In this document: piece after piece, positions 38,066 through 59,430 of the stretch
How positions within the stretch are numbered: position 1 is the first letter of the stretch
Layout of the letters: every line of letters begins with the position of its first letter
Assembly (NCBI GenBank): GCA_003194445.1
Contig: PQXF01000003.1
Location: forward strand, 62,001 to 126,000
DNA from: Candidatus Methanogaster sp.
Lineage (GTDB): Archaea; Halobacteriota; Methanosarcinia; Methanosarcinales; Methanogasteraceae
Direction of reading: 5' to 3'
Length of the DNA: 64,000 nt
Position numbers and translations under genes: made by a program
The notes under the pieces: model-generated
What the model was told of the DNA's origin: nothing
What the model saw: the letters and a program-made list of their open reading frames with translations, nothing else
Databases searched by the model: none

Positions 38066-38261
38066 TGTGGTGGTCGCGGCGGAGTGTTCATCACGTCAGA
38101 CCGTGAAGTTTATAGCCTCCGGAGTCAAGGATTTCCTTGAACTGGTGATGCCAACCCCGATCGAAGTATAATTCCCGCTGGAAATTGTTGTGCCTGCTGG
38201 AATCGTTGGTGTTTGTCTACCACAAAGTCTGAAGGACTATAATGGAAACGGGAGGACGCTT

Positions 38262-41198
38262 ATGAAACAGGACGCGGTCGTACGGATCATCGAGGAAGCG
38301 GCAGGAAGCAACCAGTCAACATTGGACTTATCCGGTAATCAACTGACAGCACTTCCGCCTGAGATTACGAAGCTTACGAATCTTACCGAGCTTAACCTAT
38401 CCTATAATCAACTGACAGCACTTCCGCCTGAGATTACGAAGCTTACGAATCTTACCGGGCTTTACCTATCCTATAATCAACTGACAGCACTTCCGCCTGA
38501 GATTACGAAGCTTACGAATCTTACCGGGCTTGACCTATCCGGTAATCAACTGACAGCAGTTCCGCCTGAGATTACGAAGCTTACGAATCTTACCGGGCTT
38601 TACCTATCCGGTAATCAACTGACAGCAGTTCCGCCTGAGATTACGAAGCTTACGAATCTTACCGGGCTTTACCTATCCTATAATCAACTGACAGCACTTC
38701 CGCCTGAGATTGTGAAGCTTACGAATCTTACCAAGCTTAACCTATCCTATAATCAACTGACAGCACTTCCGCCTGAGATTACGAAGCTTACGAATCTTAC
38801 CGGGCTTTACCTATCCGGTAATCAACTGACAGCACTTCCGCCTGAGATTACGAAGCTTACGAATCTTACCGGGCTTGACCTATCCTTTAATCAACTGACA
38901 GCACTTCCGCCTGAGATTGTGAAGCTTACGAATCTTACCGAGCTTTACCTATCCGGTAATCAACTGACAGCACTTCCGCCTGAGATTACGAAGCTTACGA
39001 ATCTTACCAAGCTTTACCTATCCGGTAATCAACTGACAGCACTTCCGCCTGAGATTGTGAAGCTTACGAATCTTACCGAGCTTTACCTATCCGAAAATCA
39101 ACTGACAGCACTTCCGCCTGAGATTACGAAGCTTACGAATCTTACCGAGCTTTACCTATCCGAAAATCAACTGACAGCACTTCCGCCTGAGATTACGAAG
39201 CTTACGAATCTTACCCGGCTTCATTTATCTGGAAATCCCCTCGAATCACCGCCACCAGAAATCGTCGAACAGGGGGTTGAGGCGATCTTTGAGTATCTGC
39301 GCAAGATTCCGGAGGAAGCAACTGAGCAGAATGAGGCAAAACTGATACTGGTCGGTCAGGGAGAAGTGGGAAAGACCTGTCTTGCCAATCGATTGATTTA
39401 CAACAAGTTCACAGAAGATGAAAAAACCACGGAAGGGATTGATATTCTGAGATGGGGGATTACTGCGCCCACTCCGGAAGAGGAGGAGATTAGACTCAAT
39501 GTCTGGGACTTTGGTGGGCAGGAGATATATCACGCCACACATCAGTTCTTCCTAACCAAGCGTTCGGTCTATCTGCTGGTCTGGAATGCCCGCAAGGCAC
39601 GCGATTATGAACACATCTACTACTGGCTGCATACGATTGAGGCTTTCGGAGAGGACAGCCCGATCATCCTGGTGATGAGCAAATTAAATGAGCGGGACGA
39701 TGATCTGAATATGAAAGACCTCAAGGAGGCGTTCCCGCAGATCGTCGGATTGTACAAGGTAGATAGCAAAGACGGGAAGAGAGTTCCCGCATTAAAGGAG
39801 ATCATCAGCCGGACTGCGTGGGATCTGCCGCACATGCGGACCCCGTGGATCGAGTCATGGTTCAACGTGCGAGAACGATTAGAAGAGGACGGACGAAACT
39901 GGATCGAGAACAACGAATTTCGTCAGATATGCACGTCAAAGGGGTTGAACGGAAAAGAAACTGATATCTTGGACGAATATCTGCATGATCTGGGTGTCAT
40001 TATTCATTTTCGGGATAGACTTGAACTGGCAAATATGGTGATTCTAAAACCGGACTGGGCGACCGGTGCGTTCTACAGGGTTCTGGACACGCAGTCGGTC
40101 AAGGATCGAGGCGGCATCTTACTGCACAATGAACTGGAAGAGAGCTGGGATCTCGGCATCTACCCGGCAGATATTCATCCCAGATTGCTGGAACTGATGA
40201 ACAAGTTTGAACTGGCGTATGAACTGCCTGATGAACGGAGTCATCTGGTTGCCGAACTTCTGCCTGCAACCGAACCTGAGTTTGAGTGGGATGATACGGA
40301 TAACCTCCGTTTCTATTACCGCTACGATTTTCTGCCCGCGGGCGTTATGACTCGATTCATTGTGCGTGTCCATCAGGATCTGGAATGTGAGTCGGATGGT
40401 ACACATCTCTGCTGGCGGGAAGGCGCGGTGCTGTCGCGGGAGGGTACGCATGCTCTTGTCAGAGTCAAGCCACTGGAAAGACTGATCGAGATCAAGATCG
40501 ATGGCAATAAAAAACGGGAATTGCTGGCGATCATCCGTCGCGAGTTTGACCATATCAACAGTTCAATCAAGAAGGTGAATATCACGGAAGAAATCCCGTG
40601 CAATTGTTCGGAAGGTTGCCCTCACAAATTCAACTATGAAGAATTATTGATAGCTGAAAATGTTGGAAGAGATGCTGTCGACTGTCCAAAGAGCTGGGCT
40701 AAAGTGCCGCTTTCGTTGTTGTTAGACGGTTACGAAAGGAAGGAAAATAGAATGAAAGAGATAGATGAGATTTCGAAAGAGAAAGGCATTACCATCAATG
40801 TAATCCAAAACCAAGACGTGACCCAAAAAAATATACAAAAACAAGAAGTTAAAATCAATATCAATGTTGAAATTGACTTACCTGCGATTCAATCCGATTT
40901 CGAGGAGTTGAAAGATATATTGCTCAAAGCAGATCCAAATCTCGAAAGAAAATTAAACGAAATTGGCGATAGTCTGGACGAAGTCAATGCCAATACTGAA
41001 GAAGAGAAATTGAATAAACCGTTCAATAAAATGCGTCGATTTTTAGAAAAAGTATATGATGAAAATTCAGACTATCACAAAATAATTTCTGGAACCAAAG
41101 AAGGGATTAGATTGGTTCAAAAAGTTGGGAAAACCTATAACGGATTTGCACGATGGCTGGCATTGCCACAAGTTCCAGAATTGTTTTTGGGAAAGTAA
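38262..41198 (+). CDS. Leucine-rich-repeat Roc-COR GTPase
   Basis: 978 aa from ATG 38262 with GGAGGACG as ribosome site; the earlier in-frame codon at 38190 has none. Residues about 20-325 are 13 near-identical 23-residue LRRs (NQLTALPPEITKLTNLT-type) plus one degenerate repeat. The Roc GTPase has P-loop GQGEVGKT at 365-372, switch II WDFGGQE near 415 and a SKLN guanine-specificity motif near 471. The COR dimerisation domain follows to about 750. The last 140 residues are a coiled coil and an amphipathic tail. Roco proteins are signalling GTPases; several bacterial and archaeal ones sit in defence islands as sensors. A truncated homologue of its tail is at 47283-47460. Confidence 0.9.
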   Translation: MKQDAVVRIIEEAAGSNQSTLDLSGNQLTALPPEITKLTNLTELNLSYNQLTALPPEITKLTNLTGLYLSYNQLTALPPEITKLTNLTGLDLSGNQLTAVPPEITKLTNLTGLYLSGNQLTAVPPEITKLTNLTGLYLSYNQLTALPPEIVKLTNLTKLNLSYNQLTALPPEITKLTNLTGLYLSGNQLTALPPEITKLTNLTGLDLSFNQLTALPPEIVKLTNLTELYLSGNQLTALPPEITKLTNLTKLYLSGNQLTALPPEIVKLTNLTELYLSENQLTALPPEITKLTNLTELYLSENQLTALPPEITKLTNLTRLHLSGNPLESPPPEIVEQGVEAIFEYLRKIPEEATEQNEAKLILVGQGEVGKTCLANRLIYNKFTEDEKTTEGIDILRWGITAPTPEEEEIRLNVWDFGGQEIYHATHQFFLTKRSVYLLVWNARKARDYEHIYYWLHTIEAFGEDSPIILVMSKLNERDDDLNMKDLKEAFPQIVGLYKVDSKDGKRVPALKEIISRTAWDLPHMRTPWIESWFNVRERLEEDGRNWIENNEFRQICTSKGLNGKETDILDEYLHDLGVIIHFRDRLELANMVILKPDWATGAFYRVLDTQSVKDRGGILLHNELEESWDLGIYPADIHPRLLELMNKFELAYELPDERSHLVAELLPATEPEFEWDDTDNLRFYYRYDFLPAGVMTRFIVRVHQDLECESDGTHLCWREGAVLSREGTHALVRVKPLERLIEIKIDGNKKRELLAIIRREFDHINSSIKKVNITEEIPCNCSEGCPHKFNYEELLIAENVGRDAVDCPKSWAKVPLSLLLDGYERKENRMKEIDEISKEKGITINVIQNQDVTQKNIQKQEVKININVEIDLPAIQSDFEELKDILLKADPNLERKLNEIGDSLDEVNANTEEEKLNKPFNKMRRFLEKVYDENSDYHKIISGTKEGIRLVQKVGKTYNGFARWLALPQVPELFLGK
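38331..39237 (+). repeat. Tandem 69-bp repeats encoding LRRs
   Basis: Thirteen copies of a 69-base unit, first AATCAACTGACAGC at 38337 and last at 39165. Most copies differ at fewer than five bases, many of them silent-poor swaps (ACG to GTG giving T/V, GGT to TAT giving G/Y). The uniformity shows recent expansion or gene conversion. A coding repeat, not a CRISPR array. Confidence 0.95.
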
Positions 41199-41883
41199 AA
41201 GACGCATTTAAGGATTGTGGGGCTCTGACAGAAACAGCGCATCGACGGCTGTAATCGATGATGCAATGGTTACTTCTCGCATTTGGGATTATTAGGGTCC
41301 GCGGCACCACCTGCATGAATCTATCCGAGGATCTATTATCAGGCAGTCTCACCAGTTCTCCGAGCCCGCTGTCACACAGGAGGCGGTGCGAGGCGGAACA
41401 GTTCCGCTGCCAGCAGGGTTCACTGCCGAAGAGGTGATAACAAACATCACTACCGGTTACTGATCGGCTACCTCTTCGGCAGGCACGTCCTGAAGACATG
41501 CCCGGTGCTGCTCATGGGCGCAGGTCACTGACGCGATTGCAAGCGGTGCGGCACCCGGGTGTCGGTAAGGAGGAAGCCAGATGCCAACGCTCGGGTTACA
41601 CAGGCGCTTATGCATCTGCCAATGCGCTGCTGACGATGGCTGGTAGTGCGATTCTGCTTCTATAGGGGGATGGGGTGGTTTTTATTGGTCATGTTGATTG
41701 CGGTAGGGGGCGTGGGGGTCGGTTAGTTTTGTATATCATGGCGGCACTGGTTGTAATCATATAATGCGATGCGATCTATATGGCAGGCTTATGGTATTGC
41801 TATTGAGGTGCAGCGGTGGGATGCGCGGCATGAAATCGCTATGTACGGGCTCTGGACTTATAGTTGCGGGGTTTGGGTGACTT
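41199..41883 (+). repeat. Direct repeat R1, copy a
   Basis: Non-coding stretch, about 95 percent identical by eye to 47461-48142. It follows the LRR-Roc stop and ends at a GTGACTT motif (41877-41883), after which the two copies diverge into different genes. It contains protein-like but broken frames (for example a segment reading AYASANALLTMAGSAILLL near 41625), probably relics. No intact gene. Confidence 0.85.
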
Positions 41884-41910
41884 AACAAATAAAGGTATTT
41901 TAAGGGAAGA

Positions 41911-42534
41911 ATGACAATGATTGGAACTAATACTGTTACTATTCTGTTTGCAGATATCAAAGATTATAGCAAGCTATATTTAAGACAAAAGCTTGAACTC
42001 CGTGAAGTTGTAGAAACTGAACTTCTTGCCGCCATTGTTGACGAGGTGGGAAGGGACAGTATTAAACATTACAACTCATGGGGTGATGCCTATCTGATAT
42101 TATTTAGTAATGTCAATGCGGGGGTGAAAGCGGCACTTATACTTAGGGATCAATTTCGGTCAAGAACGAACTGGAGAGAACTTGGCCTGCCACCGACTCT
42201 AAATATTCGGTGTTCACTTCACGTAGGTGATGTAGTTATTAAAGATTTTGAAAATCCAATTTTTGGAAATAAAAAACAGGATGTTGTTGGAGAGAATATA
42301 GACCTCACAGCAAGAATCGAACCTATAACTCCCCCTGGTCGTGTGTGGGCTACAAAACAGGTTATCGCATTACTCCCAGACAATACTCCAGATGGTGTGC
42401 ATGTTGATCCAATTGGTAAGCTAGAATTAGCTAAGGGGTTGCCAGAAAATAACCTATCAAAATACGTGGCATTCACACATTCACACATTCGTGATAAAAC
42501 CGGGACAAAAACAGCATCAGTAGATCACGAATAA
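41911..42534 (+). CDS. Class III nucleotidyl cyclase domain protein
   Basis: 207 aa, essentially a lone catalytic domain. Metal-binding Asp residues are D15 (FADIKDYS) and D59 (SWGDAYLILF). The transition-state pair is N129 and R135 (ENIDLTARIE). Where adenylate cyclases carry a substrate-specifying Lys four residues before the second Asp, this protein has Asn55, so the substrate may not be ATP. No membrane or sensor domain. Paired, 9 bases apart, with a guanylate-kinase-like gene. Stand-alone class III cyclases in such islands include Pycsar enzymes, which make cCMP or cUMP upon phage infection. That this is one is inference. Confidence 0.85.
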   Translation: MTMIGTNTVTILFADIKDYSKLYLRQKLELREVVETELLAAIVDEVGRDSIKHYNSWGDAYLILFSNVNAGVKAALILRDQFRSRTNWRELGLPPTLNIRCSLHVGDVVIKDFENPIFGNKKQDVVGENIDLTARIEPITPPGRVWATKQVIALLPDNTPDGVHVDPIGKLELAKGLPENNLSKYVAFTHSHIRDKTGTKTASVDHE

Positions 42535-42543
42535 ACGAATCAC

Positions 42544-43371
42544 ATGAATGCCAGAGATGTGGATGGTCACCGAATAACTTTGTTACTTTATTTTTCGTCA
42601 AGCACTAAAGGATGGGATGTACGGAGTCTTTATGATGTGCGCCGGGTTGGAGACGAAAAAATCGACATATCAGACATCCCAGATATGGATAATAATGTCA
42701 TCATCGATAAGAGCGGTATCAATGTATTAAAGGATCCTCCGGGGATATTGATTATGTTATGTGGTCCAAGCGCGGTTGGCAAAGATGCTATTGCATCCCG
42801 TATGCGTGGACGCCTTGATCAACTTGGAATAGAGGCACAGTTTCCTCAAAAATATACAACCCGCCCTATACGAAAACAAGAAGATACACCAATTGACGGT
42901 AGATGGTTCGAACCTAGTTCGCAATATGAATTTCTGACAGATGACGAGCTTAATACACGAGACGATATTATTGGCAAATATAATAAGTTTGGTTATTCAT
43001 ATGGGTTTGATAAAAAATGGTTTAAAAATAAAAGTTTGATGAATAAATTTTTGATATGTATTTATGGAGATCTTTATTTATTGGCTGATTTTAAAAAAGA
43101 GATTGAGGAAAAGTATGCTCGAAAGGTTTTTGTTGTTTTTCTTCAAGCACCTGATAAAGATCTTCATACGAGACTCGATACGAGACCTGGCATGCCCGGT
43201 GACGTCATTGAGATTAGGAAAAAAGAGATGATACGAGACATTGCAAGGCTCGAGCGTATGCACTTTGGGGGTGACTATATAAGGATAGATAATTCAAATA
43301 CGGACAATCCAGACGAGGTGTCAGAAAAGTTATTGCGGAGAGTATTAGAGGAAATAGGATATTTAACTTGA
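42544..43371 (+). CDS. Guanylate-kinase-like P-loop protein
   Basis: 275 aa. After about 65 residues of unknown N-terminal sequence, the P-loop GPSAVGKDA is at residues 74-82. The GMP-binding-type TTRPIRKQE (R107) and a long lid region with YSYGFDKKW follow, then a VVFLQAP strand and a Leu/Ile-rich C-terminal helix. This is the guanylate kinase fold, but the domain is longer than true Gmk (about 200 aa) and has an extra N-terminal domain. Paired with the nucleotidyl cyclase, it could use, make or degrade the cyclic nucleotide or act as the effector. Base composition (AT-rich) differs from core genes. Confidence 0.7.
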   Translation: MNARDVDGHRITLLLYFSSSTKGWDVRSLYDVRRVGDEKIDISDIPDMDNNVIIDKSGINVLKDPPGILIMLCGPSAVGKDAIASRMRGRLDQLGIEAQFPQKYTTRPIRKQEDTPIDGRWFEPSSQYEFLTDDELNTRDDIIGKYNKFGYSYGFDKKWFKNKSLMNKFLICIYGDLYLLADFKKEIEEKYARKVFVVFLQAPDKDLHTRLDTRPGMPGDVIEIRKKEMIRDIARLERMHFGGDYIRIDNSNTDNPDEVSEKLLRRVLEEIGYLT

Positions 43372-43700
43372 TAAATAGAAACATGGAATCTTAAAAACAA
43401 AATAAATATTAAAGCCTCGAGCATGGGTGACTTCAGAGAGAGTGTCATGATGAACGCAGCGGTCGGCGCCGGGTCCCGCATGAACGAGGTGTTTTGTGAC
43501 CATGAGTCGAAAGACGTGGTGTAGATGAAGAGTGAATACAGAGGTGCGATGATTGAAGTTCGACCGGAATGATGCGATGCACGGACACCGGTTCGGACAT
43601 AACACCGGATAGGTAGGATATGTGAACTCGGGTTCGGATGTATAACGTATGGGCGATTGCGACATCAGTTTAATAAACATAAGCAGATATACAGTAAATA

Positions 43701-43975
43701 ATGGCAATTCAGTTCATTCTAACGGATTACGTAAGCCAGCTATTGGCAAATGCAGTCTACGACAAACTGGATGACGGCACTTATGCCGGACGAATTCCAC
43801 AATGTAGAGGAGGGGCAAGCATTCGGAGCAACCCTCGCGTGAATGCGAGGATGAGATCCACTCCACCCTCGAGGATTGGATTCTGGTTGGTCTCAAGCTG
43901 GGACATCCTTTACCCGTGATTGCTGAAATTAATCTGAATAAGGATCTGGCTTATGAGCCCGTGGAAGCCCTGTAA
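43701..43975 (+). pseudogene. HicB-like antitoxin relic
   Basis: Begins MAIQFILTDYVSQLLANAVYD with the DGTYAGRIPQC strand of archaeal HicB proteins in frame one. It then continues in another frame as AFGATLA and in a third as ECEDEIHSTLEDWILVGL, ending with NKDLAYEPVEAL. Two frameshifts break it. The same breaks are present in the copy at 50473-50747. Confidence 0.75.
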
Positions 43976-44185
43976 ACGCCGAGACTTTATCCGGCGGATG
44001 CGTAAGTTGGGTTTTGATTGCACCCTATTCCGGTACACGCCATCAATTTATGATCCATGGGCAGAATCGTATGGCGATCCCTTCTAATGCTAAAATATTC
44101 CGTGCCTCAGCTTCGGATGATGATTCGTGAGGTTGAAGGGATCCTGAATAGGGGTATTACGGTGAATGAGTGGAATAAATTATGA
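43953..44185 (+). pseudogene. HicA-like mRNA interferase relic
   Basis: Starts ATG 43953 overlapping the HicB relic. Frame one gives RRDFIRRMRKLGFD, the HicA/YcfA N-terminus. Then a shifted frame has YSGTRHQFMIHGQNRMAIPS with the expected catalytic His, and a third frame PQLRMMIREVEGILNRG. Two frameshifts inactivate it. Toxin and antitoxin are decayed together. Confidence 0.75.
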
Positions 44186-44340
44186 TCTACGCTTCCTATG
44201 TTGGATCAGGGATTGTTATCCTGTGTGTCGTTGGCGTCCCGTACTCTAAAACCCGTAAGCCTGCTTCTAAAAATGCGCTGCAACCGCAATCCTTATCATC
44301 TGATAGACTGATGGCAGAATCGTGCATGTTGCCCGTATGA
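44182..44340 (+). CDS. Possible small membrane peptide, 52 aa
   Basis: Starts in an ATGA-type overlap with the end of the HicA relic, with a hydrophobic segment (SGIVILCVVGVP) then a basic, Ser-rich tail. An identical frame is at 50954-51112 within the other R2 copy. It may be a remnant; coding status is uncertain. Confidence 0.3.
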   Translation: MIYASYVGSGIVILCVVGVPYSKTRKPASKNALQPQSLSSDRLMAESCMLPV

Positions 44341-44461
44341 TGTGCCCCCCCATCTGAGATAACAGATGCATTTCAAGGCTAAGATGGGTGATTGTTGAAT
44401 TGTTAGTGAGTTCATTGCCGGCACAGCAGGATGCGCGAAAATTAGTAGGAGGCAAAGAAAA

Positions 44462-44956
44462 ATGGTTAGTATCGAAGATATTCCGGCAGAGGTGAGATGG
44501 GAGATTGCAGCTAAAGCAGCGAGCGCAACACCATTGGCTTATGACATAGTCTTTCGGGAAGCTCTTGGCGATAAGTACGACGAGATCGAGCGTCCGATCT
44601 ATGTCGAAGCAGGAAAGGAGATGAAGAGCCTTACATCGGCTCTGGGTCTGCCAACGGATAATGCCATGGACCTTGGCAATGCTCAGAGCGTTCTTACGAC
44701 GGTCCTCTACGGACCCGAGTTTGAGTTTGGGAATGTCGAGGGTACCGGAGATAGGGCAGTAGGTAAGGCGACCGGGTGTTCCGTGTTGAATCGGGCATTG
44801 GAGATAGGACTGGATCCGAAAATCTGTCTCGAAGCGTGTCAGACATTCTGTAAATCGACTATCGAGAACTTAAACCCGAAGTACACCCAGAGGTTTACCA
44901 AGAATATGTGCGCCGGCGACCTTTACTGCGAGATGTTGATCGAGCTTAGGGGATAG
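44462..44956 (+). CDS. 164-aa protein, L-2-amino-thiazoline-4-carboxylate hydrolase-like (tentative), copy a
   Basis: Has an AGGAGG ribosome site 9 bases upstream of the ATG. Soluble, mixed alpha/beta, with a C-terminal half rich in Cys (GCSVLNRALE, CLEACQTFCKSTI, MCAGDLYCEMLIELRG). The ending G-D-x-x-C resembles the ATC hydrolase-like family (PF14196), whose archaeal members have unknown function. Stands 14 bases before the isochorismatase-family gene, an operon. A copy differing at about 10 of 164 residues is at 51235-51729. Confidence 0.7.
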   Translation: MVSIEDIPAEVRWEIAAKAASATPLAYDIVFREALGDKYDEIERPIYVEAGKEMKSLTSALGLPTDNAMDLGNAQSVLTTVLYGPEFEFGNVEGTGDRAVGKATGCSVLNRALEIGLDPKICLEACQTFCKSTIENLNPKYTQRFTKNMCAGDLYCEMLIELRG

Positions 44957-44970
44957 CTGGAGGTATAAAG

Positions 44971-45594
44971 ATGTCAGAGGTAAAGATAGACCCTGAGCAA
45001 GCTGCGTTGTTGCTAATAGATATGCAGAACGATATTCTTCACGAGAAAGGGAAGCTTGCCGCATCGGGAGTTGGAGTCTGGAAGTTTGCAAAGGAAGTAG
45101 GGATCATCCGTAACACCAGAAAGATGATCGAGATCGCAAGGAAGAATAGCATACCTGTAATCTATGTGAAGATCGTTTTCAGACCGGATTATGCAGATAT
45201 GGGATTGGTTCAATTTTCGCCCTGCACGCTGTGTAGGATGATAAAGGAAGGCAAGGTCTTTAAGGAGGGTACGTGGGGCGCTGAGTATGTCGATGAGCTA
45301 AAACCAGAGGCAGGTGATTATGTCGTTGTCAAAAGAAGGATGAACGCGTTCTATAATACAGATCTGGAAACGTTGTTGAGGGGTCTATGGAGATCGACGC
45401 TTCTAATTTGTGGAGCTATTACAAATTTCTGTGTGGAGGCAACGGTTAGAGGTGCAGTGGATAGGGATTTCGATGCCATCGTGCTGGAGGATTGTACAGC
45501 GAGTGAAAGCAAAGAGATGCAAGAATTTCCGATGAAGGCGATCTTCCCGATGTTAGGAATCGTGACAACAACAGAAGAGTTGGTCGTAGAATAG
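44971..45594 (+). CDS. Isochorismatase-family cysteine hydrolase
   Basis: 207 aa. The catalytic triad of the family is visible: D in LLIDMQND (residue 17), K in VVVKRRMNAF near residue 116, and the nucleophile C in ITNFCVEATVRGA near 152. Members hydrolyse nicotinamide, isochorismate, ureido or other amide/vinyl-ether substrates; the specific one is unknown. GGAG ribosome site in CTGGAGGTA. Located in R2 copy a; the counterpart in R2 copy b is a truncated relic. Confidence 0.85.
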   Translation: MSEVKIDPEQAALLLIDMQNDILHEKGKLAASGVGVWKFAKEVGIIRNTRKMIEIARKNSIPVIYVKIVFRPDYADMGLVQFSPCTLCRMIKEGKVFKEGTWGAEYVDELKPEAGDYVVVKRRMNAFYNTDLETLLRGLWRSTLLICGAITNFCVEATVRGAVDRDFDAIVLEDCTASESKEMQEFPMKAIFPMLGIVTTTEELVVE

Positions 45595-45733
45595 ATTTGG
45601 TGTGTTGGAGTTCCTCCCGGGAAAACCACAGCTTAAAAAAATCCGAGGTGCACAGGGATTTGTCCTTCAAAAAAGGTACTGTGGTAAGTGCATCAAAAAT
45701 AAACAGGAGGAAACTACCAATGAAAAATTATTG
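45595..45733 (+). other. Gene start interrupted by the IS66 element
   Basis: Ends with an AGGAGG ribosome site, 8 bases, then ATGAAAAATTATTG, directly followed by the IS66 terminal repeat. An incoming gene probably began here and lost all but its first four codons when the element or a recombination removed the rest. Confidence 0.45.
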
Positions 45734-47282
45734 GTAACTACTCACCTACACAGCCGGACGGGATAAACGAAATCCCCTCTAAGCGCATCCGACAGTCGCA
45801 TCGAGCATAGGACACCCGTTCTTTCGCACGGTAGATATATACCCAGCAGAATACCACAGAACACATCTGCCCCTATAGCAGTCCGAAATGTGCCTAATAT
45901 CTTCTGCCTCAGTTTCATCATGCGTACGTCCCGTTCAGCCTGGTTATTGTCAAACGGCTTAATCATTGTCGTACATAAATGCTAGCACTTCCTATTTATA
46001 CCCTTTTAACCTATCAAGCAGATTTTTGGGTGGAGATTGTTTAACCCTACCCCTCTTTCCTGGTTCTTTTTGAGGTGGTGGGTTTAATTCCAGTCCCTCC
46101 TCAATGATCTTATCAAATCGATCTTCAAACTCCTTGATTGTATCAGGATCGAGCTCATCTTTGTACGGTCTGGCTTGATCCACCTCTTTCTTGATATCAA
46201 GCAAACATTGGCTCATTTCTTCTGCCCAGTCCTGTTCATACTGAACGTGTTCAAATGTAAGGTCTCTTAAGTGGTGGGCGTTGCAAAGGGCATGTGTTAC
46301 GTCAGTGTAATTGAAATATGGCGCCCAGTGATCATGCATAGCAACTCCATCGAATTCTGCTAAAATTCCCATCACGTCCATCGCATCCTTTCCGCGCTTC
46401 GGATGCACAATATGATACGTCAACTCGTGAGTGTTGGCAACATGGAGCCAGTTTTAGCTTACCCTCCCTTCGCAAACCAGTTTCATCGAAATTAACTACG
46501 TGGGAGTTTATCAACAGCTCTTTAATCACCTCATTAGCTGGTTTAACGTTCTCTGCACATCTTGCATTCGCCTGGAGAATAAATGCCTCCGTTGGGCGGT
46601 GATCAAAGATATCCTCAAAAAAGTCCCCGACACGTTCCAACGGGACAAACTGGTAGTTGGTCTGGTAGACTGCCATCGCTCTGACCCGATTGCCATATTG
46701 CACCGATGCAGTGACGTCTGGTGGAAATAAAGCCATGTTGCGTGCGCCCGCAATGAGGGCACGTCTTGATCTCTGCTTGATGTTCTGTAACCTCGATTTT
46801 TACGGGAGGAATGTCAAAAGACCTGCCGCTTCTGATAGTCATCCGCTTCGACATCTTCGAGAGTTGCGCCACACACTGTGCACCGATCTGCGACGTGCAC
46901 TTCTATGTGATCCGGTTCTTCCACAGGTTCCAGTGTGCGACCAACATGCCCCTCCTGTCCACCGTTCTTCTTCTTGCCCCGCAATCTCAGAGCTTTTGGT
47001 ACGGGGCGTCTTTTTGAGTCCATCACTGGATGGGGGCTTGCTGCTGTTTTTGCTGTTCTTGTTCAGCTGATCTTGCATGGTCTGTAATTCCCAGATGAGG
47101 TAATCGAATAGTTGGATGATAGCCTCTTCCCCTTGCTGGTAAGCGGCATGAATCTCATCGTGAGTAGGTATGCACATTGTGTCCTCCATCCATCAAACGA
47201 AATGTTTTATTCACAACCATTGCGATGGTACATATAATTTCATTAATAATAAATTTTGCGGTGGTGGGGGGTGAGTAGTTAC
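45734..47282 (-). mobile_element. Degenerate IS66-family insertion sequence
   Basis: 1549 bp bounded by matching inverted ends GTAACTACTCACC (45734-45746) and GGTGAGTAGTTAC (47270-47282). No clear 8-bp duplication flanks it (AATTATTG against AAATAAAT), in line with age or later recombination. Its single transposase gene is broken into several frames. The right boundary is exactly where the R1 copy b homology begins. Confidence 0.85.
45742..47189 (-). pseudogene. IS66-type DDE transposase, multiply frameshifted
   Basis: Read from 47189 downward. The N-terminal leader and NSKNSSKPPSSD motif are followed in other frames by GQEGHVGRTLEPVEEPD, a CPHCGRTQ zinc-ribbon part, VNFDETGLR (first catalytic Asp), HDHWAPYFNY (second Asp region) and DNNQAERDVRMMKLRQKI (third, Glu). 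At least five frame changes are needed, so it cannot make an active enzyme. Confidence 0.88.
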
Positions 47283-47460
47283 AAATAAATTAGGTAGATT
47301 TTTAAAGAAATTAGATGATGAAAATTCGGACTATTGCAGGTTAATTTCCAAATCCAAAAAAGGAATTGAATCAGCTCAAAAACTTGGTAAAGCTTATAAC
47401 AAATTTACTCAATGGATTCCTGCATTGCCTGTTGTACCGGATTTGTTTTTAGGAGACTAA
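47283..47460 (+). pseudogene. C-terminal fragment of a second LRR-Roc GTPase
   Basis: The last 55 codons read FLKKLDDENSDYC to VVPDLFLGD, similar (about 60 percent) to the end of the LRR-Roc protein at 38262-41198. Everything upstream is replaced by the IS66 element. This shows that another complete LRR-Roc gene once preceded the second R1 repeat. Confidence 0.8.
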
Positions 47461-48142
47461 AAGGCGCATTTAAGGATTGTGAGGCTCTGACCGAAACAAC
47501 GCGCTGGATGATGTAATCGATGATGCAATGGTTACTTCTCGCATTTGGAATTATTAGGGTCCGCGGCACCACCTGCATGAATCTATCCGAGGGTCTATTA
47601 TCAGGCAGTCTCACCAGTTCTCCGAGCCCGCTGCCACACAGGAGGCGGTGCGAGGCGGAACAGTTCCGCTGCCAGCAGGGTTCACTGCTGAAGAGGTGAT
47701 AAAGAACACCACTGCCGGCTGCTGATCGGCTACCTCTTCGGCAGGCACGTCCTGAAGACATGCCCGGTGCTGCTCATGGGCACAGGTCACTGACGCGATT
47801 GCAAGCGGTGCGGCACCCGGGTGTCGGTAAGGAGGAAGCCAGATGCCAACGCTCGGGTTACACAGGCGCTTATGCATCTGACAATGCGCTGCTGACGATG
47901 GCTGGTAGTGCGATTCTGCTTCTGTAGGGGGATGGGGTGGTTTTTATTGGTCATGTTGATTGCGGTAGGGGGCGTGGGGGTCGGTTAGTTTTATATATTA
48001 TGGCAGCACGGGTTATAATTATATAATATGATGCGATATATATGGCGGGCTTATGGTATTGCTGCTTAAATGCAGCGGTGGGATGCGCGGCATGAAATCG
48101 CTAGGTACATGCCCTGTACTTATGTGCGGGGTTTAGTGACTT
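47461..48142 (+). repeat. Direct repeat R1, copy b
   Basis: About 95 percent identical by eye to 41199-41883 and, like it, directly follows the LRR-Roc C-terminus. It ends at GTGACTT (48136-48142), after which a HEPN module follows in place of the cyclase. Non-coding. The stretch 48143-48445 shows no gene I can support. Confidence 0.85.
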
Positions 48143-48445
48143 CGGGAGACTGGCACGATGTCAATGATATGGGGGTCGGGGGTGAATCGGGTGGTTGAAA
48201 AGGTCTGATTCTGATGGATTCTGTGGTTTTCGAAAGATACCGAAAGAAAGCGGCGCATACACGGTTCTGAAGAGGTACATCTCATGAGAACTGGCTGCGA
48301 AACCACGCGATTTCCGCATATGCGAGGTCTACTGCTAGCGACCACAGAAAACAGCAGAACCAGGAAAAGGTTTTGTGGGGTGCAATGGGACGACAATCTT
48401 AAATATGCAATTGATACATATATTCTAATCATAAAGGAGACGAAC

Positions 48446-49066
48446 ATGGAAGCGAAACTTAGACGAGCGGATATTGTGATATTGGCTTCGGCTCACAATC
48501 CTAGCATAATGGCCCCACAATGGCTCAAGGATAAATCCTTGATAGTTGAAGAACCCACACAGTTTGTACACACTCCCGATTTCTCTCTGTTTGAATCGGA
48601 GTCTTTTTTATTGGTAGTTGATAATCAGCGGATGCAAATCACAGTTAAAAAGCAAGATAATCGGTCAGTAGAATCTTTAGCAAATATCGCTAGTAACTAT
48701 CTAAAATTATTACCTCACATTCCATACAAGGCACTTGGTTTAAACTTTGTATGGAGTATTGAGGTTGATGATGGGAAGGAACTTCCAAAAATTGAGCTTA
48801 ATATAAATAAAAGCGATTTAATGTCAGTTTTTGAGGGTCGCGAAATTGAATGTGGAGGTATCATCTACGCGAGGAAAGAACCATATATGCTTAAAGTTGT
48901 TATCGAACTTCGGGGGGAAGACGTCATTGTTCACAATTTCAATTACAATTATGAGCTTGAAGGTATGTCTGTGGAAGATATAGTAAAATTGGTAAATAAT
49001 TTTTTAACCATGAAAGAAGATTCATCGAGTATTGTTAAAGGTCTTTACTCGATAGGAGAAAAGTAG
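48446..49066 (+). CDS. Unknown protein of a three-gene HEPN module
   Basis: 206 aa from ATG 48446 with AAAGGAGACG upstream; the long N-terminal extension in the same frame has no ribosome site. Not recognised. Starts with a strand IVILASAHNPSIM, then FVHTPDFSLFESESFLLVVD and a C-terminal helix. No membrane segments, no nucleotide-binding motif. Its stop abuts the next ATG. Probably a partner or sensor for the HEPN protein. Confidence 0.65.
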   Translation: MEAKLRRADIVILASAHNPSIMAPQWLKDKSLIVEEPTQFVHTPDFSLFESESFLLVVDNQRMQITVKKQDNRSVESLANIASNYLKLLPHIPYKALGLNFVWSIEVDDGKELPKIELNINKSDLMSVFEGREIECGGIIYARKEPYMLKVVIELRGEDVIVHNFNYNYELEGMSVEDIVKLVNNFLTMKEDSSSIVKGLYSIGEK

Positions 49067-49708
49067 ATGGTCGATCCACACCACACAAGTACCGAAGGGA
49101 TAGAAATGGGAACGATGTGGGGGGAAAGAGAAGCGTTAATGAGCGTTGGCTTTATGAGACCTCCAAACACTTTTTCGGAACTTCAACCTACCACCACAGC
49201 GCCAAATATCTATTCAGCGTATCGTCTTCTTTTTAACACTGTTTCCCAAAGGCTTGCAAGGGGGGAAGAATTGGGGTATGAGCAGTATTATAGTGTTGAT
49301 CGTGCGAGTAAAAGCTTGCATTCGCTGATAGACTCGATTGCCGGCACGTCCCGGGATGAAACTTTATCAACTTATCCTACTTCGGATTTACGAAAGTTAG
49401 AACAGCATTATATCTTCCGAAATCAATCTGAAGTTATGAATTTTGCTGTGAACAATTCTTCCCTTTTACAGCCCCTCCATGAAGCTTATGACCAGATTAG
49501 AAATTATTTTGGAGAGTCTGTACAGGCAGTTCTTGAGGTCGTTACCGACCCCGAGTTTGTAGAAGATCAGGAATTAGTGATTTATATTCGCACAGACATT
49601 TCGCCAGATGAAGCATTGAAAAAACTTGAACAGATTGATAATGCATGGTGGTTGGACGTTCCTGCTGATGCGCGGAAAAAGCTATGTATTAACGTGGAAT
49701 TTATATGA
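49067..49708 (+). CDS. Unknown protein of the HEPN module
   Basis: 213 aa. The N-terminal half is polar, and residues 150-213 form a conserved-looking domain (SVQAVLEVVTDPE, then ELVIYIRTDISPDEALKKLEQID). Similar proteins occur next to HEPN genes and I do not know their function. The gene starts immediately after the previous stop and its own stop overlaps the HEPN start by 4 bases. It is the best candidate for the antitoxin or regulator of the HEPN protein, by position only. Confidence 0.65.
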   Translation: MVDPHHTSTEGIEMGTMWGEREALMSVGFMRPPNTFSELQPTTTAPNIYSAYRLLFNTVSQRLARGEELGYEQYYSVDRASKSLHSLIDSIAGTSRDETLSTYPTSDLRKLEQHYIFRNQSEVMNFAVNNSSLLQPLHEAYDQIRNYFGESVQAVLEVVTDPEFVEDQELVIYIRTDISPDEALKKLEQIDNAWWLDVPADARKKLCINVEFI

Positions 49709-50094
49709 CTTTCGATTGGTCGGCGTATTTGAAACTTGCACAAGAACTTGCCGGAGATGACACAGGTTCGCCTGGTGAAGAGGCTAAGTTACGTTCTTCT
49801 GTTAGCAGGGCTTACTATGCAGCTTTCTGTAAAGCACGAAATCACTTACGTGATATCGATGGGCATCAAATACTTTCGGCGGATCCACCGAAAGTAAATG
49901 TTCATAAGTACGTTCGAGATGAATTCAAGAATAGCTCCGATATATCACGTAAAAAGATAGGAGATAATCTGAATCGACTAAGAATACACAGAAACAAAGC
50001 AGATTACAACGACGTTGTAACCGGGCTACCACAACTGACGACAGCGTCTTTAAAATGGACTCATGATGTTATCTCTGCACTAAACACCCTCTAA
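49705..50094 (+). CDS. HEPN-domain protein
   Basis: 129 aa all-helical. An N-terminal VSRAYYAAFCKARNHL segment and the C-terminal RLRIHRNKADYNDV motif (R-x3-H-R-N type, about residues 93-102) mark a HEPN RNase-like fold. HEPN proteins act as toxins or nuclease effectors in defence systems and toxin-antitoxin pairs. ATGA overlap with the preceding gene. Directly followed by the second R2 repeat. Confidence 0.8.
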   Translation: MTFDWSAYLKLAQELAGDDTGSPGEEAKLRSSVSRAYYAAFCKARNHLRDIDGHQILSADPPKVNVHKYVRDEFKNSSDISRKKIGDNLNRLRIHRNKADYNDVVTGLPQLTTASLKWTHDVISALNTL

Positions 50095-50472
50095 TTAAGA
50101 ATGTGTCAGCATGGCCCCACCCCACATCTATCCACGATCACACCAACACGCGACCCCCATCGGTCAAAGATGCCCCGTACTTCAGTACGGAGTATAGTGA
50201 CTTCGGAAAACTATCATGTTGGGCGCAGCCGGTCGGCGCCGGGTACTGCATGGACGCGGTGTTTTGTGACCATGGATCAAAAGACGTAATGTAGACGAAG
50301 AGTGAATACGGATGTGCGATGATTGAAGTTCACCCGGAAGGATGCAGATGGATGGGTCCCGGTTCGGACATAACGCCAGATAAGTAAGACATGCGAACTC
50401 GGGTTCGGATATAGAGCGCATGGGCGATTGCGACATCAGTTTAATAGACATAAGCAGAATATATAGTAAATA

Positions 50473-50747
50473 ATGGCAGTTCAGTTCATTCTCACGGATT
50501 ACGTAAGCCAGCTATTGGCACATGCAGTCTACGGCAAACCGGATGACTGCACTTATGCCGGGCGAATTCCACAATGTAGAGGAGGGGCAAGCATTCGGAG
50601 CAACCCTCGCGTGAATGCGAGGATGAGACCCACTCCACCCTCGAGGATTGGATTCTGGTTGGTCTCAAGCTGGGACATCCTTTACCCGTGATTGCTGAAA
50701 TTAATCTGAATAAGGATCTGGCTTATGAGCCCGTGGAAGCCCTGTAA
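50473..50747 (+). pseudogene. HicB-like antitoxin relic, second copy
   Basis: Copy of 43701-43975 with the same two frameshifts and only a few substitutions, so the gene was already broken when the segment was duplicated. Confidence 0.75.
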
Positions 50748-50957
50748 ACGCCGAGACTTTATCCGGCGGATGCGTAAGTTGGGTTTTGATTGCACCCTAT
50801 TCCGGTACACGCCATCAATTTATGATCCATGGGCAGAATCGTATGGCGATCCCTTCTAATGCTAAAATATTCCGTGCCTCAGCTTCGGATGATGATTCGT
50901 GAGGTTGAAGGGATCCTGAATAGGGGTATTACGGTGAATGAGTGGAATAAATTATGA
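50725..50957 (+). pseudogene. HicA-like interferase relic, second copy
   Basis: Copy of 43953-44185 and frameshifted in the same places. Starts at ATG 50725 inside the HicB relic, with the TRHQF catalytic-His region in a shifted frame. Confidence 0.75.
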
Positions 50958-51112
50958 TCTACGCTTCCTATGTTGGATCAGGGATTGTTATCCTGTGTGT
51001 CGTTGGCGTCCCGTACTCTAAAACCCGTAAGCCTGCTTCTAAAAATGCGCTGCAACCGCAATCCTTATCATCTGATAGACTGATGGCAGAATCGTGCATG
51101 TTGCCCGTATGA
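50954..51112 (+). CDS. Possible small membrane peptide, second copy
   Basis: Identical in frame and sequence to 44182-44340. Preservation across the duplication is expected because of its recency, so it does not prove coding. Confidence 0.3.
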   Translation: MIYASYVGSGIVILCVVGVPYSKTRKPASKNALQPQSLSSDRLMAESCMLPV

Positions 51113-51234
51113 TGTGCCCCCCCCATCTGAGATAACAGATGCATTTCAAGGCTAAGATGGGTGATTGTTGAATTGTTAGTGAGTTCATTGCCGGCACAGC
51201 AGGATGCGCGAAAATTAGTAGGAGGTAAAGAAAA

Positions 51235-51729
51235 ATGGTTAGTATCGAAGATATTCCGGCAGAGGTGAGATGGGAGATTGCAGCTAAAGCAGCGAGCGCA
51301 ACACCATTGGCTTATGACATGGTCTTTCGGGAAGCTCTTGGCGATAAGTACGACGAGATCGAGCGTCCGATCTATGTCGAAGCAGGAAAGGAGATGAAGA
51401 GCCTTGCAACGGCTCTGGGTCTGCCAACGGATAATGCCAGAGACCTTGACGATGCTCAGAACGTTCTTACGACGATCCTCTACGGACCCGAGTTTGAGTT
51501 TGGAAATGTCGAAGGTACCGGAGATAGGGCAGTAGGTAAGGCGACCGGGTGTGCCGTGTTGAATCGGGCATTGGAGATGGGACTGGATCCGAAAATCTGT
51601 CTCGAAGCGTGTCAGACATTCTGTAAATCGACTATCGAGAACTTAAACCCGAAGTACACCACAAGGTCTATCAGGAATATGTGCGCCGGCGACCCTTACT
51701 GCGAGATGGTGATCGAGCTTAGGGGATAA
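51235..51729 (+). CDS. 164-aa ATC-hydrolase-like protein (tentative), copy b
   Basis: Paralogue of 44462-44956, intact, with substitutions spread along the protein (for example IV to MV near residue 30, TS to AT near 53, QRFTKN to TRSIRN near the end) and all Cys kept. Both copies remaining open while the isochorismatase next to this one has decayed suggests this protein is the part under selection. AGGAGG ribosome site upstream, as in copy a. Confidence 0.7.
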   Translation: MVSIEDIPAEVRWEIAAKAASATPLAYDMVFREALGDKYDEIERPIYVEAGKEMKSLATALGLPTDNARDLDDAQNVLTTILYGPEFEFGNVEGTGDRAVGKATGCAVLNRALEMGLDPKICLEACQTFCKSTIENLNPKYTTRSIRNMCAGDPYCEMVIELRG

Positions 51730-51743
51730 ATAAGGGCGTAAAG

Positions 51744-51853
51744 ATATCAGAGATAGAAATAGACCCCGAGTAAGCTGCGTTGTCGCTAATAGCTATGCAA
51801 AACGATGCTCTTCATGAGAAAGGGAAGTTTGCCGTATTAGGTGTTTGGAAAGA
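51744..51853 (+). pseudogene. Isochorismatase-family relic
   Basis: Aligns with the first 110 bases of the gene at 44971. The start ATG is ATA, a CAA codon is now TAA, the catalytic Asp of LLIDMQND is Ala, and sequence similarity stops at about 51853 just before the KAP gene. Confidence 0.8.
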
Positions 51854-51886
51854 ACGAGATACTGTTCTACAACGAGAGGTGCCATT

Positions 51887-53458
51887 ATGTCTGAAGCTGT
51901 GATGAAAAACGACGAACCGGCGGAAAGTGATGGGTTAAATCGCGGTGAGTATGTGGAAACGTTCGCGAAAATCGCGACGACGTGCGACACGCCGATGGTG
52001 ATTGGACTCTACGGTAGTTGGGGGGTTGGAAAGACATCCCTTATGAAACTGATCGAAGCGGAGATCGATCCCGGCAAATCGACAACACAAACGGTCTGGT
52101 TTGACGCATGGCTCTACCAGTTCGATGAGCATCCGGTAATGGGTTTGTTGCATAAGATGGTCGTTGACCTCGAAGTCACAGAAGAAACAGAGGTCAAGGA
52201 AAGAATATATCGTATTGCGCGGGCTCTTGGTCCAGGAATACTCACAGGAATGGTCAAGGCGACCACACACATCGACTTGAGTGGTATTGCCGAAGCCTTC
52301 AGCCGCTACGAGGAAGAGGACTTCAGAATTCAGGAAGATCGAGTAAATCTACGTGAGAACTTTCAGAAACTTATCGAGAAAGTGCAAACGGCGAAGGGTG
52401 GCAGGAAGAGGATCGTATTCTTCATCGATGATCTGGATCGATGCATGCCCGACCATATCCTATCAGTTCTTGAAGCCTTGAAACTGTACCTAAATCTTGA
52501 GGGGTGTGTGTACTTCCTCGGGTTAGATCGCCATGCTCTGGAGGACAGTATACGGTATCATTACAAGGATTTTGATTTTGATATGGAGGCGACCAGTTAC
52601 CTTGACAAGATCATCCAGCTTCCATTCGAAATCCCACCTGTTGATCCGGATTGCATAGAATCGTTCATTCACTCTTTCCTCCCCAATGGGAAAGAATATG
52701 AAAAGCTTAATGATTGTGCGGAGATTTTGAAAATTGGACTCGGTGGTAATCCTCGAGGGATAAAAAGGTTCATCAATACCCTACTGCTTAACGACCACCT
52801 CGCCAGAACGAGAAAATTGTCTAAATATGATCCAAAGATCCTCACCACCCTTCTGGTGATTCAGTACCGTAATAGAGATCTGTACGATATGATCTCCGAA
52901 GATCCTTCATTGCTGGTCGACCAAAATACAGAGGAGTGGGAGACTCGTATTAAAGGACACAAATATCTTAAAGAGGTGCTGGAACTGGTGACACTTCCGG
53001 ATAATGCAGAAGGTCTGGAGCCCTACATCTATCTCACGGACGTAGCAGGAATTGTGACTGAGGTACTGCAGGATGAGCGAGGCTTCTACACGGAGGAGGG
53101 ATTGGATCAACTCCTTGCCGCTTCAGGAAAGCTCAGCGACGATGAATACATTTGCGACAAGCTCCCGCTCTACAAAACAATGAGACAACGCACGTGGTTG
53201 GTGGCAACCAATCGAAATCTGTTCTATCTTCTTGATGACGAAAAAGCCAGAAGATATAAAAGTGTGATTAAATGGGTACAACCATTCTCTTCGGCAACTC
53301 CGTTGCAGGTGCGGGCTTATATCTCCGAAAAGGGACTGCATGTGGTCGACATCGGTAAGAGAAAAGGGTGGCTCTACTCACATAACATGTACCCCAGAAG
53401 CGAAGAACTCGCCAAAAAGGTGGAAAAAATGATAGCTCTTGCATTAGCTTCAGATTAA
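51887..53458 (+). CDS. KAP family P-loop NTPase
   Basis: 523 aa from ATG 51887 with GAGAGGTG upstream; an earlier in-frame codon at 51845 has no site. Walker A is GSWGVGKT at residues 43-50 and the extended Walker B FFIDDLDRCMPD near 177-188, both classic for KAP NTPases. The C-terminal 200 residues include a segment of unknown type ending with a Lys-rich helix. No strong membrane segment, unlike many KAP proteins. KAP NTPases occur in prokaryotic defence and conflict systems. Lies just past R2 copy b, the third cargo of the island. Confidence 0.85.
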   Translation: MSEAVMKNDEPAESDGLNRGEYVETFAKIATTCDTPMVIGLYGSWGVGKTSLMKLIEAEIDPGKSTTQTVWFDAWLYQFDEHPVMGLLHKMVVDLEVTEETEVKERIYRIARALGPGILTGMVKATTHIDLSGIAEAFSRYEEEDFRIQEDRVNLRENFQKLIEKVQTAKGGRKRIVFFIDDLDRCMPDHILSVLEALKLYLNLEGCVYFLGLDRHALEDSIRYHYKDFDFDMEATSYLDKIIQLPFEIPPVDPDCIESFIHSFLPNGKEYEKLNDCAEILKIGLGGNPRGIKRFINTLLLNDHLARTRKLSKYDPKILTTLLVIQYRNRDLYDMISEDPSLLVDQNTEEWETRIKGHKYLKEVLELVTLPDNAEGLEPYIYLTDVAGIVTEVLQDERGFYTEEGLDQLLAASGKLSDDEYICDKLPLYKTMRQRTWLVATNRNLFYLLDDEKARRYKSVIKWVQPFSSATPLQVRAYISEKGLHVVDIGKRKGWLYSHNMYPRSEELAKKVEKMIALALASD

Positions 53459-53797
53459 GTGGTAACCGAGACACCATCTAAAAAATTGGTGAATTATGAT
53501 ACTTATTGTAGATGCAGATTTCACAAATTTACGCAGATCTTGCCTTGAATCAGTGTAATCAGCATCAATGGCTCAGCCGCTGCCCGCTCTTCTCACAGAT
53601 AGTGGATAAAAACAACATTAGCCACCGATTAACAGAGATGAACACAGATTACAGGTCGTTTGTACCGTTGGATTCATTTAAACACTCCACACGATATTGA
53701 GCAGGTACCAGAAACGCACGCGTTGGAACCAAGAACACCAGCCCGAATCACCACCCCACCAGAAATCGTTAAAACCCACCAAGCATACACTTCACAC
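53459..53797. other. Intergenic stretch with fragments of dispersed repeats
   Basis: No gene supported. Contains GATTAACAGAGATGAACACAG-like sequence around 53630 and ATTTCACAAATTTACGCAG near 53518, similar to cacagattaca-type intergenic repeats seen also near 14430. Confidence 0.4.
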
Positions 53798-55051
53798 ATG
53801 AACAGACTCTCCGACCGGATCGACCCCACTGCCAGCGACACCCTGCGCATTCTAACCGATCTCGTCGGGATGCCGACAGCGGTCCCCCCTGGTGATAATT
53901 ACGAGGAGATCGTCGATTACCTGATGCCAAAGTTCGCGGATCTCGGATTTGAGGTTGAGAAGGTGTGCATCCCTGAAGATATATTCAAGCAGAAGATGAA
54001 AAACCCGGAACTGCACGGGAAACGGGCGAATCTGCACGCGTATCTCGATGTCTGCGCTGACCGGACGCTTGTGATCTACACGCATCTCGATGTGGTTCCT
54101 GTAGGCGATGGATGGACATTCCCGCCGTACGAGGGCACGATTGCGGACGGTAAATTCTATGCACGTGGATCTGCGGATTCGAAGGCAGCGGTCGCAGCAC
54201 TATTAACCGCGCTCACCCAGATCCGAGAACTTGGTATCACGCCCGCATATAACCTCAATATCGCACTGACAACGGACGAAGAGATCGGTCCGTACTCAGG
54301 ACTTTGTTATTTCGCTGACATCGGTCTCCTGTCAGGGGATTATTTCCTGTGCATGGACGGCGAGGGCGATGATGTCATCATCGGCACAAACGGGATACTC
54401 ACATGGCGAGTCGATGTTTTCGGAAGGACATATCACAGCGGAAGCAGTTTTTTAGGCGTAAACGCACTCGAAAAATCGGTTGCGATGATGAACGGGATGC
54501 TTGCACTGAAGAGCGAGGTCGAGGACAGACGGTCAGAGATGCCAAGCAGCCACGTAGTCGCTGATAAGACCGGTTTTTTAAATGTGAAACCGATTCTGAA
54601 TATCACGATGATCGAGAGCGGCGTAAAGGAGAACGTGGTTCCAGGGATTTGTACCATTCGCGGCGACCGCAGGGTGATACCTGAAGAGACATTCGATACC
54701 GCAATCGAGGAGATCGAAAGGGCGCTGGCGAATGCCGCAGGTGCCGGTGCCGATACGAGATACGAGTTCACGTATGAGCTTGGGTATCCGCCGATGTATA
54801 CCGATGCGAGCCATCCATGGATCGGGCAGGTTCAGACTGTTGCAAACGAGGTGTCTGACCGTAAGATCGGTATCGCGGGCGCACAGGGCAGTCTCGACGT
54901 CGCTTATGTGATCGGGATCACAGGGCAGCCGGTCTGCTGCCACGGCGTCGGGAGGGTGCTTGAGAGCCGGGCACATGCAGAGGATGAGAACGTGCGCATC
55001 GAGGATCTGGTGCGGTACACAAAGTTTTTGGGGCTGCTGCTGACAGAGTGA
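53798..55051 (+). CDS. M20 family metallopeptidase/deacylase
   Basis: 417 aa from ATG 53798; the earlier in-frame start has no ribosome site. Dinuclear zinc motifs of the ArgE/DapE/ACY1 family: H and D in THLDVVPVG, D in ARGSADSKAA, the general base E pair in TTDEEIGPYSG, and the C-terminal His in AHAEDENV. Dimerisation lid between. Hydrolyses an N-acyl amino acid or dipeptide; DapE-like is possible but cannot be decided. Followed by the CcmF-like gene after 22 bases. Confidence 0.88.
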   Translation: MNRLSDRIDPTASDTLRILTDLVGMPTAVPPGDNYEEIVDYLMPKFADLGFEVEKVCIPEDIFKQKMKNPELHGKRANLHAYLDVCADRTLVIYTHLDVVPVGDGWTFPPYEGTIADGKFYARGSADSKAAVAALLTALTQIRELGITPAYNLNIALTTDEEIGPYSGLCYFADIGLLSGDYFLCMDGEGDDVIIGTNGILTWRVDVFGRTYHSGSSFLGVNALEKSVAMMNGMLALKSEVEDRRSEMPSSHVVADKTGFLNVKPILNITMIESGVKENVVPGICTIRGDRRVIPEETFDTAIEEIERALANAAGAGADTRYEFTYELGYPPMYTDASHPWIGQVQTVANEVSDRKIGIAGAQGSLDVAYVIGITGQPVCCHGVGRVLESRAHAEDENVRIEDLVRYTKFLGLLLTE

Positions 55052-58739: not shown

Positions 58740-58989
58740 ATTGGTAACTTAGACTTAACGAATATTTAAGTTTTTCGTTATCTTGGATTAACGAATACTG
58801 TAGTAAAGGAGCTCACAATGACATACCGGGAGCGCCATACCACCATCGATAAGAGGTACTGCACTTTATAGCAGGATCACTTAACGAACACTTATGAAAT
58901 CGACGCTCGGGTTTAAGTATTATGTCGACTGTATCGCGAATTCATGGAACCCACGCGATCCATAAGATAGTCTTGCAATATCCTCGTTG

Positions 58990-59090
58990 GTATGGCCACT
59001 GATGAACTTAATTTTGAGTGCAACGGTAAGATGAGTTGCAGGAAATCGCCATGTGCAGGCTCTGGACTTAAGTGCGAGGTGTAGTGACTT
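58990..59090 (+). repeat. Fragment of the R1 repeat end with GTGACTT motif
   Basis: About 100 bases resemble the last part of R1 (CTCTGGACTTA-AGTGCGAGG then GTAGTGACTT at 59081-59090), more diverged than the copies at 41.8 and 48.1 kb. It is followed immediately by a relic of the FAD oxidoreductase. The rest of 58740-59089 holds no gene I can support. Confidence 0.6.
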
Positions 59091-59430
59091 ACATTGACCA
59101 CATCTTTGAGAGTGATTCCAAGCTGATAGATCTCGTCGGTAGCATGGGTCTCAGTGCTGACCTGCAATGGCTCAAAGGAACTACTTGCTATCATATCGAT
59201 GGGAAGATATACCCGATGAACACGCCGATCGAACTGCTCAAGTCGCCGCTCCGGTGTACCTGACCGATTACATCGAGAAGATCCCGCTGTATTCCACCGA
59301 TATTGAGGGGTTATATTTTGCCGGCATGTTCTCCCGGACCAACTATCCCGAACGAAGTATGAACGGATCTATCCTGGCGAGATTCGAGTGCGCGGAGGAG
59401 ATTAGGGGCGTACCCGTGCCTGGAAACTAA
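59090..59430 (+). pseudogene. Internally deleted relic of the FAD oxidoreductase gene
   Basis: The left part matches the 56183 gene from the YHHIFASDSELIDLIG region to IELLKSP. Then about 590 bases are missing and sequence resumes, in another frame, at PVYMTDYIENIPPY and runs to the end (KYTERSMNGS-type motif kept). The 5' end is absent. Evidently a duplicate that decayed. Confidence 0.85.

Follow-up and report, generated by a model that had tools for sequence, protein, structure and literature searches.

The window, by which we mean the whole 64,000-nucleotide stretch of DNA of the ANME-2 archaeon Candidatus Methanogaster sp. that was analysed, carries two long direct repeats, R1 and R2, that occur twice and have different genes (cargo 1 and cargo 2) between them. 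Both units lie between a helicase gene and an M20 peptidase gene, and the closest named loci are those of the ANME-2 genome HMMV-459B1 and other Methanosarcinales MAGs. The features of the locus are as follows:

35579-38065, + strand: helicase gene, the left anchor (name from motifs; in 16 of 17 family genomes)
38190-41198, + strand: LRR-Roc-COR gene (Pfam; at the helicase-M20 locus otherwise only in G043, absent from other congeners)
41025-41883, + strand: R1 of unit 1 (3' end of the LRR-Roc gene, then degraded intergenic sequence and the right end of an IS200/IS605 element)
41287-41730, + strand: R1 core of unit 1, 97.1% identical to unit 2
41825-41883, + strand: IS200/IS605-type right end, terminus GTGACTT
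41911-43371, + strand: cargo 1, nucleotidyl cyclase and guanylate-kinase-like reading frames, probably one fusion frame split by a MITE
42431-42607, no strand assigned: MITE inside cargo 1, 3-bp target duplication CTA
43427-45061, + strand: R2 of unit 1, with broken hicBA, an ATC-hydrolase-like gene and the start of the isochorismatase gene
43791-44632, + strand: R2 core of unit 1, 99.6% identical to unit 2
44971-45594, + strand: intact isochorismatase-family gene of unit 1 (Pfam E 2.4e-47)
45736-47284, - strand: decayed element of IS66 type, inverted ends present and target duplication absent (family assigned by reading the broken frames)
47284-48142, + strand: R1 of unit 2, with a truncated LRR-Roc end (other allele), degraded sequence and an IS200/IS605 right end
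48370-50185, + strand: cargo 2, three genes conserved as a block, the third of them weakly matching HEPN
50197-51834, + strand: R2 of unit 2, with broken hicBA, an intact ATC-hydrolase-like gene and an isochorismatase remnant
51845-53458, + strand: KAP NTPase gene, joined to the isochorismatase remnant (Pfam E 1.6e-41)
53660-55051, + strand: M20 peptidase gene, the right anchor (name from motifs; in 11 of 17 family genomes)

We located the repeats by BLAST of the window against itself. The R1 copies (41025-41883 and 47284-48142) are 88.9% identical over 864 columns and the R2 copies (43427-45061 and 50197-51834) 94.3% over 1640 columns. Their order and strand are alike in both units and their likeness is far beyond chance, which bears out the first-pass annotation of two long direct repeats, R1 then R2, present twice. 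The KAP NTPase that it placed after the second R2 is confirmed by Pfam, and the unit 2 isochorismatase remnant runs directly into this gene. A DNA search elsewhere in the family for a full relative of the KAP gene found none and only a dispersed repeat of about 114 bp matched widely. This repeat lies directly 3' of the KAP gene (53447-53560) and has dozens of copies across the family.

Immune-system matches in the window are to single genes only (KAP to PDC-S20/QatA, and weak matches to HEPN_IX and PycC), with no complete system. The tRNA and Rfam scans of the window returned no matches, and we therefore see no tRNA-based integration site. Outside the interval, an FAD-dependent oxidoreductase gene (56183-57463, named from motifs) has a deleted, diverged second copy at 59097-59405. 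A PDC-S01-type ATPase lies between gene and remnant, and the remnant, found 3' of an IS200/IS605 right end (58929-59090), is 84-91% identical to all congeners. Twice in the window, then, cargo stands next to a diverged second copy of a backbone gene.

Composition of the repeats and their cargo

A reading of R1 and R2 as dedicated module ends is not supported. They are made of the 3' end of the LRR-Roc gene, remnants of IS200/IS605 elements, a dead hicBA pair and a metabolic gene. Parts of the degraded intergenic sequence of R1 are found directly 3' of the helicase gene in four other genomes (G031, G035, G021 and G067). The left half of R2 contains hicB and hicA reading frames in tandem. The pair is broken in both window copies by frameshifts common to the two. 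Genomes G063, G031 and G016 have an open hicB frame. A hicBA relative in G062 matches UPF0150 (E 3.7e-26) and HicA_toxin (E 0.0039, below the curated cut-off), and a search of the hicBA region against plasmids gave no matches. Directly 5' of hicBA, a gene for a small HNH protein is present in G063 (L057 1312-1569) and G031 (L054 8222-8479) and missing at this position in the window. The right half of R2, with the ATC-hydrolase-like gene and the isochorismatase start, is also present at the helicase-M20 locus in congeners.

An LRR-Roc gene was thought to precede R1 in both units. The LRR-Roc-COR gene does lie upstream of R1, and the unit 2 remnant belongs to a different allele, 74% identical to copy 1 and 94% identical to G043. 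This LRR-Roc remnant is cut off at the terminal inverted repeat of the IS66-type element (45736-47284), whose closest full-length counterpart elsewhere in the genome is 95% identical. Two further features of the LRR-Roc gene deserve mention. It is flanked by an imperfect repeat of 11-12 bp (TGATG..(A/G)TGGT, 38064-38075 and 41259-41270) where relatives lack this gene. Among its 69-bp LRR coding repeats (38326-39237) the DNA identity is about 93-95%, which points to recent expansion or homogenisation of the array.

The tail of R1 is dispersed in the genome (16 matches), and its sequence is close to GAAATCGCTATGTACAGGCTCTGGACTTAAGTCCGGGGTTTGGTGACTT. In full-length copies (L040/L117 frame) the encoded protein matches Y1_Tnp (E 7e-33) and the 3' end of this Y1 transposase gene is the R1-tail repeat, which identifies the tail as the right end of an IS200/IS605-type element. 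We had considered the R1 tail as an attachment site for cassettes and set this aside for the same reason; it survives only in a landing-border reading discussed below.

The nucleotidyl cyclase domain in cargo 1 is confirmed, and the annotation of the accompanying gene as guanylate-kinase-like has weak profile support. The MITE between the two is about 175 bp long with inverted ends, and the genome contains eight more copies, of which one is partial. These copies are nearly identical, so the element moved recently. Joined across the 3-bp target duplication, the MITE flanks read through as a single open frame of 428 codons, and a join shifted by one base in either direction introduces stops. The two-gene cargo 1 is thus best read, from its sequence, as a fusion gene split by the MITE. 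The joined cyclase-kinase protein has no relative in the other genomes of a 394-genome phylum sample. A repeated cyclase-effector system with a common N-terminus was also considered and rejected, the eight further matches to the first 17-31 codons of the guanylate-kinase-like gene being the MITE copies.

Cargo 2, described at first as a three-gene HEPN module, is indeed a conserved three-gene block, and its HEPN identity is weak by profile (Pfam E 0.056, PADLOC HEPN_IX E 2e-4). The block is also present in G059, a genome of another genus, at another locus, with 88.9% identity over 1827 columns; an IS200/IS605 right end precedes it by 53 bp. Genomes of that genus match the window at only 72-75% in their helicase DNA, so the block has moved horizontally. 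The second gene of the block had no match among viral contigs.

The helicase-M20 interval in relatives

The family comparison set consists of 17 genomes, and the members other than the one studied here are draft MAGs. Helicase and M20 peptidase genes are on one contig in four of them (G000, G031, G035 and G043). The order in G031 is helicase, part of R1, HNH, hicB, ATC, isochorismatase, a further gene and M20; the HNH (L054 8222-8479) is the same protein as the Pfam-matched HNH in G063. In G035 the helicase is followed by R1 parts that include the right end, then by a TIGR04255 protein (E 1.6e-32) with a neighbour, and M20. The order in G043 is helicase, LRR-Roc, ATC and M20. G000, the genome of the window, has the double unit. 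On a shorter contig, G063 has the end of the helicase, an Abi_2-like gene, HNH, hicBA and a truncated ATC gene.

Across congeners the interval thus holds no cargo, LRR-Roc alone, the TIGR04255 pair, the Abi_2-like gene or the double unit. The helicase and M20 peptidase genes form a conserved frame with variable content between them. Such flanking genes, alike in several genomes, with content that varies by genome, are features of a hotspot. Two things that the first-pass annotation proposed to look for are seen here. Other cargo is found in relatives, at this locus in G035 and G063 and elsewhere in G016, and an empty junction is seen in G043, where the LRR-Roc gene stands directly before the ATC gene. 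G016 is of the same genus as G059, and at another locus it has a right end, a nucleotidyltransferase gene, a HepT-like gene, a PLD-type nuclease gene and then the left part of R2 with hicBA. This is a third cargo in the order transposon right end, cargo, hicBA.

Mosaic identity and the origin of the two units

The repeats had been described as identical flanks. They are in fact mosaics, with a 444-bp core at 97.1% in R1 and an 842-bp core at 99.6% in R2, and flanks of 78.2, 85.3, 87.3 and 83.9% (some of these comparisons are short, 150-174 bp), so that near-identical cores stand beside flanks of 78-87%. In R2, identity runs unbroken for up to 487 bp, where permutations reach at most 192. The differences are clustered, and for R1 as for R2 the segment score lies above those of all 2000 permutations. 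At the level of sequence, this significant mosaicism shows recombination within both repeats. The R2 core is only about 80-93% identical to any relative. Most of it is the dead hicBA pair and intergenic DNA, for which the likeness to relatives is about 74-93%, so selection is no explanation for its identity between the units. The two copies of each core are closer to each other than to any relative.

The mosaic identity, together with the unit 2 LRR end being 94% identical to G043 and 74% to copy 1, indicates diverged alleles with cores homogenised by homologous recombination. Judged by these comparisons, the two units are diverged alleles and not one duplicated unit with a swapped middle. We consider it probable that the interval between the helicase and M20 peptidase genes is a variable hotspot in which two such alleles are stacked in tandem and have had their cores homogenised in patches. 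Conflict-type genes would accumulate at the hotspot beside transposon debris and the hicBA pair, with two alleles, each with other cargo, standing in tandem rather than one replacing the other.

We infer the order of events and the donor; a donor of unit 2 as a whole was not found. A congener may have supplied the second allele, taken up and integrated through a single homologous crossover, or an equivalent unequal crossover may have placed it there. The cores would then have been converted by homologous recombination, R1 copy with R1 copy and R2 with R2, and crossovers between repeat copies would be a route by which cargo can be exchanged. A later IS66 event may have taken away the front of the second LRR-Roc, and the KAP gene presumably took the place of most of the second isochorismatase gene.

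The exchange of whole modules by recombination between the repeats, as first proposed, agrees with the other cargo at the locus in relatives and with the mosaicism of R1 and R2. The dedicated ends and the swapped middle do not stand. The exchange idea is largely right and the layout itself is ordinary debris. The MITE and the IS66 element account for part of the observed pattern.

Plain tandem duplication of one unit, with the cargo of one copy later replaced and ordinary decay since, would account for units alike in order and orientation, for cores 97-99.6% alike that are closer to each other than to any relative, and for the hicBA frameshifts common to both copies. A simple tandem duplication is expected to leave even divergence, however, and the clustering of differences exceeds that of all 2000 permutations. 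With divergence this uneven along the copies, a unit 2 LRR end closer to another species (94%) than to unit 1 (74%), and a need to replace the outer flanks too, such an origin is unlikely and already disfavoured. Import of new flanks after a recent duplication would give a similar pattern. It is also conceivable that the haplotypes of two strains were joined at the IS66-type element during metagenome assembly. The junction between the units is a multi-copy IS, two other contigs (C6 and C30) start in IS66 sequence and the other family members of the set are draft MAGs. The 95% identity of the IS copy to its nearest full-length relative in the genome speaks for a correct assembly without proving it, the contig continues for 194 kb, and joining at an IS would not by itself create conversion-like cores, unless the strains had exchanged them. 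We regard an artefact as rather improbable.

The IS200/IS605 right ends invite another explanation, in which an IS200/IS605-type transposase cuts and pastes cargo behind the GTGACTT right end. Cargo starts at or shortly behind a right end in units 1 and 2, G035, G059 and G016, and R2 starts with a GTGACTT sequence, as at the right end. Ten 5' neighbours of right ends are mostly core or metabolic genes (L4, S15, PheT, HemC, CbiC, PanE), and ten 3' neighbours include Shedu, PemK, HATPase_c_3 and HD proteins as well as ordinary or unknown ones, both being chosen samples without control. Yet many right-end copies precede ordinary genes and remnants collect naturally at the edges of accessory DNA. 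The left end is delimited only roughly, in full elements, and an unsystematic look found none beyond the cargo. Cut-and-paste movement of this kind is very unlikely. A broader reading would have decayed right ends with GTGACTT serve as fixed landing borders in ANME-2 genomes, with conflict cassettes exchanged behind them by homologous recombination or by the Y1 transposase; we would give this only a small chance. The right ends at 41825-41883, L077-L088, L024, L038 and L041 often have core genes 5' and accessory genes (Shedu, PemK, HATPase_c_3, HD, DUF7019) 3', a lead from a chosen sample without control.

Relation to known defence hotspots

The statement in the first-pass annotation that no described system has this layout is too strong, since defence hotspots flanked by core genes have been described (PMC10250203, PMC5398294). 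In P. aeruginosa, cDHS1 and cDHS2 hold interchangeable immune and unknown genes between fixed conserved genes with no single mobile element in charge (PMC10250203). Their transfer was proposed to occur by homologous recombination in the conserved flanks, which would leave no mobile-element scars, and how hotspots between core genes arise and spread was left as future work (PMC10250203). In Streptococcus suis, different defence elements occupy one locus, rpiA-trmE, in different strains (PMC5398294).

With two hotspot alleles side by side and sharp-bordered recombination tracts next to the cargo, the question of hotspot assembly becomes testable in a single genome, and in archaea without pure cultures. 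The arrangement favoured here, two stacked alleles in a variable hotspot, suggests a way for a cell to keep two sets of conflict genes rather than choose one, with genes added and not simply swapped.

The locus is of a kind already known, the defence hotspot flanked by core genes, and what is new is the stacking of alleles with visible conversion tracts in an archaeon. As in cDHS1 and cDHS2, genes between conserved genes are interchangeable across genomes with no single mobile element in charge. Unlike those, the locus is archaeal, its alleles are stacked in tandem, conversion tracts are visible beside the cargo, and the cargo is without a recognised complete defence system. The S. suis rpiA-trmE locus is similar as one chromosomal locus with different elements; those elements replace one another, whereas here the second set stands beside the first. 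The IS200/IS605 remnants and MITEs of archaeal genomes have their counterparts in the tail of R1, which is the right end of a Y1-transposase element, and in the MITE of cargo 1. Here these sequences are debris only, while movement of cargo driven by a transposase stays a candidate reading.
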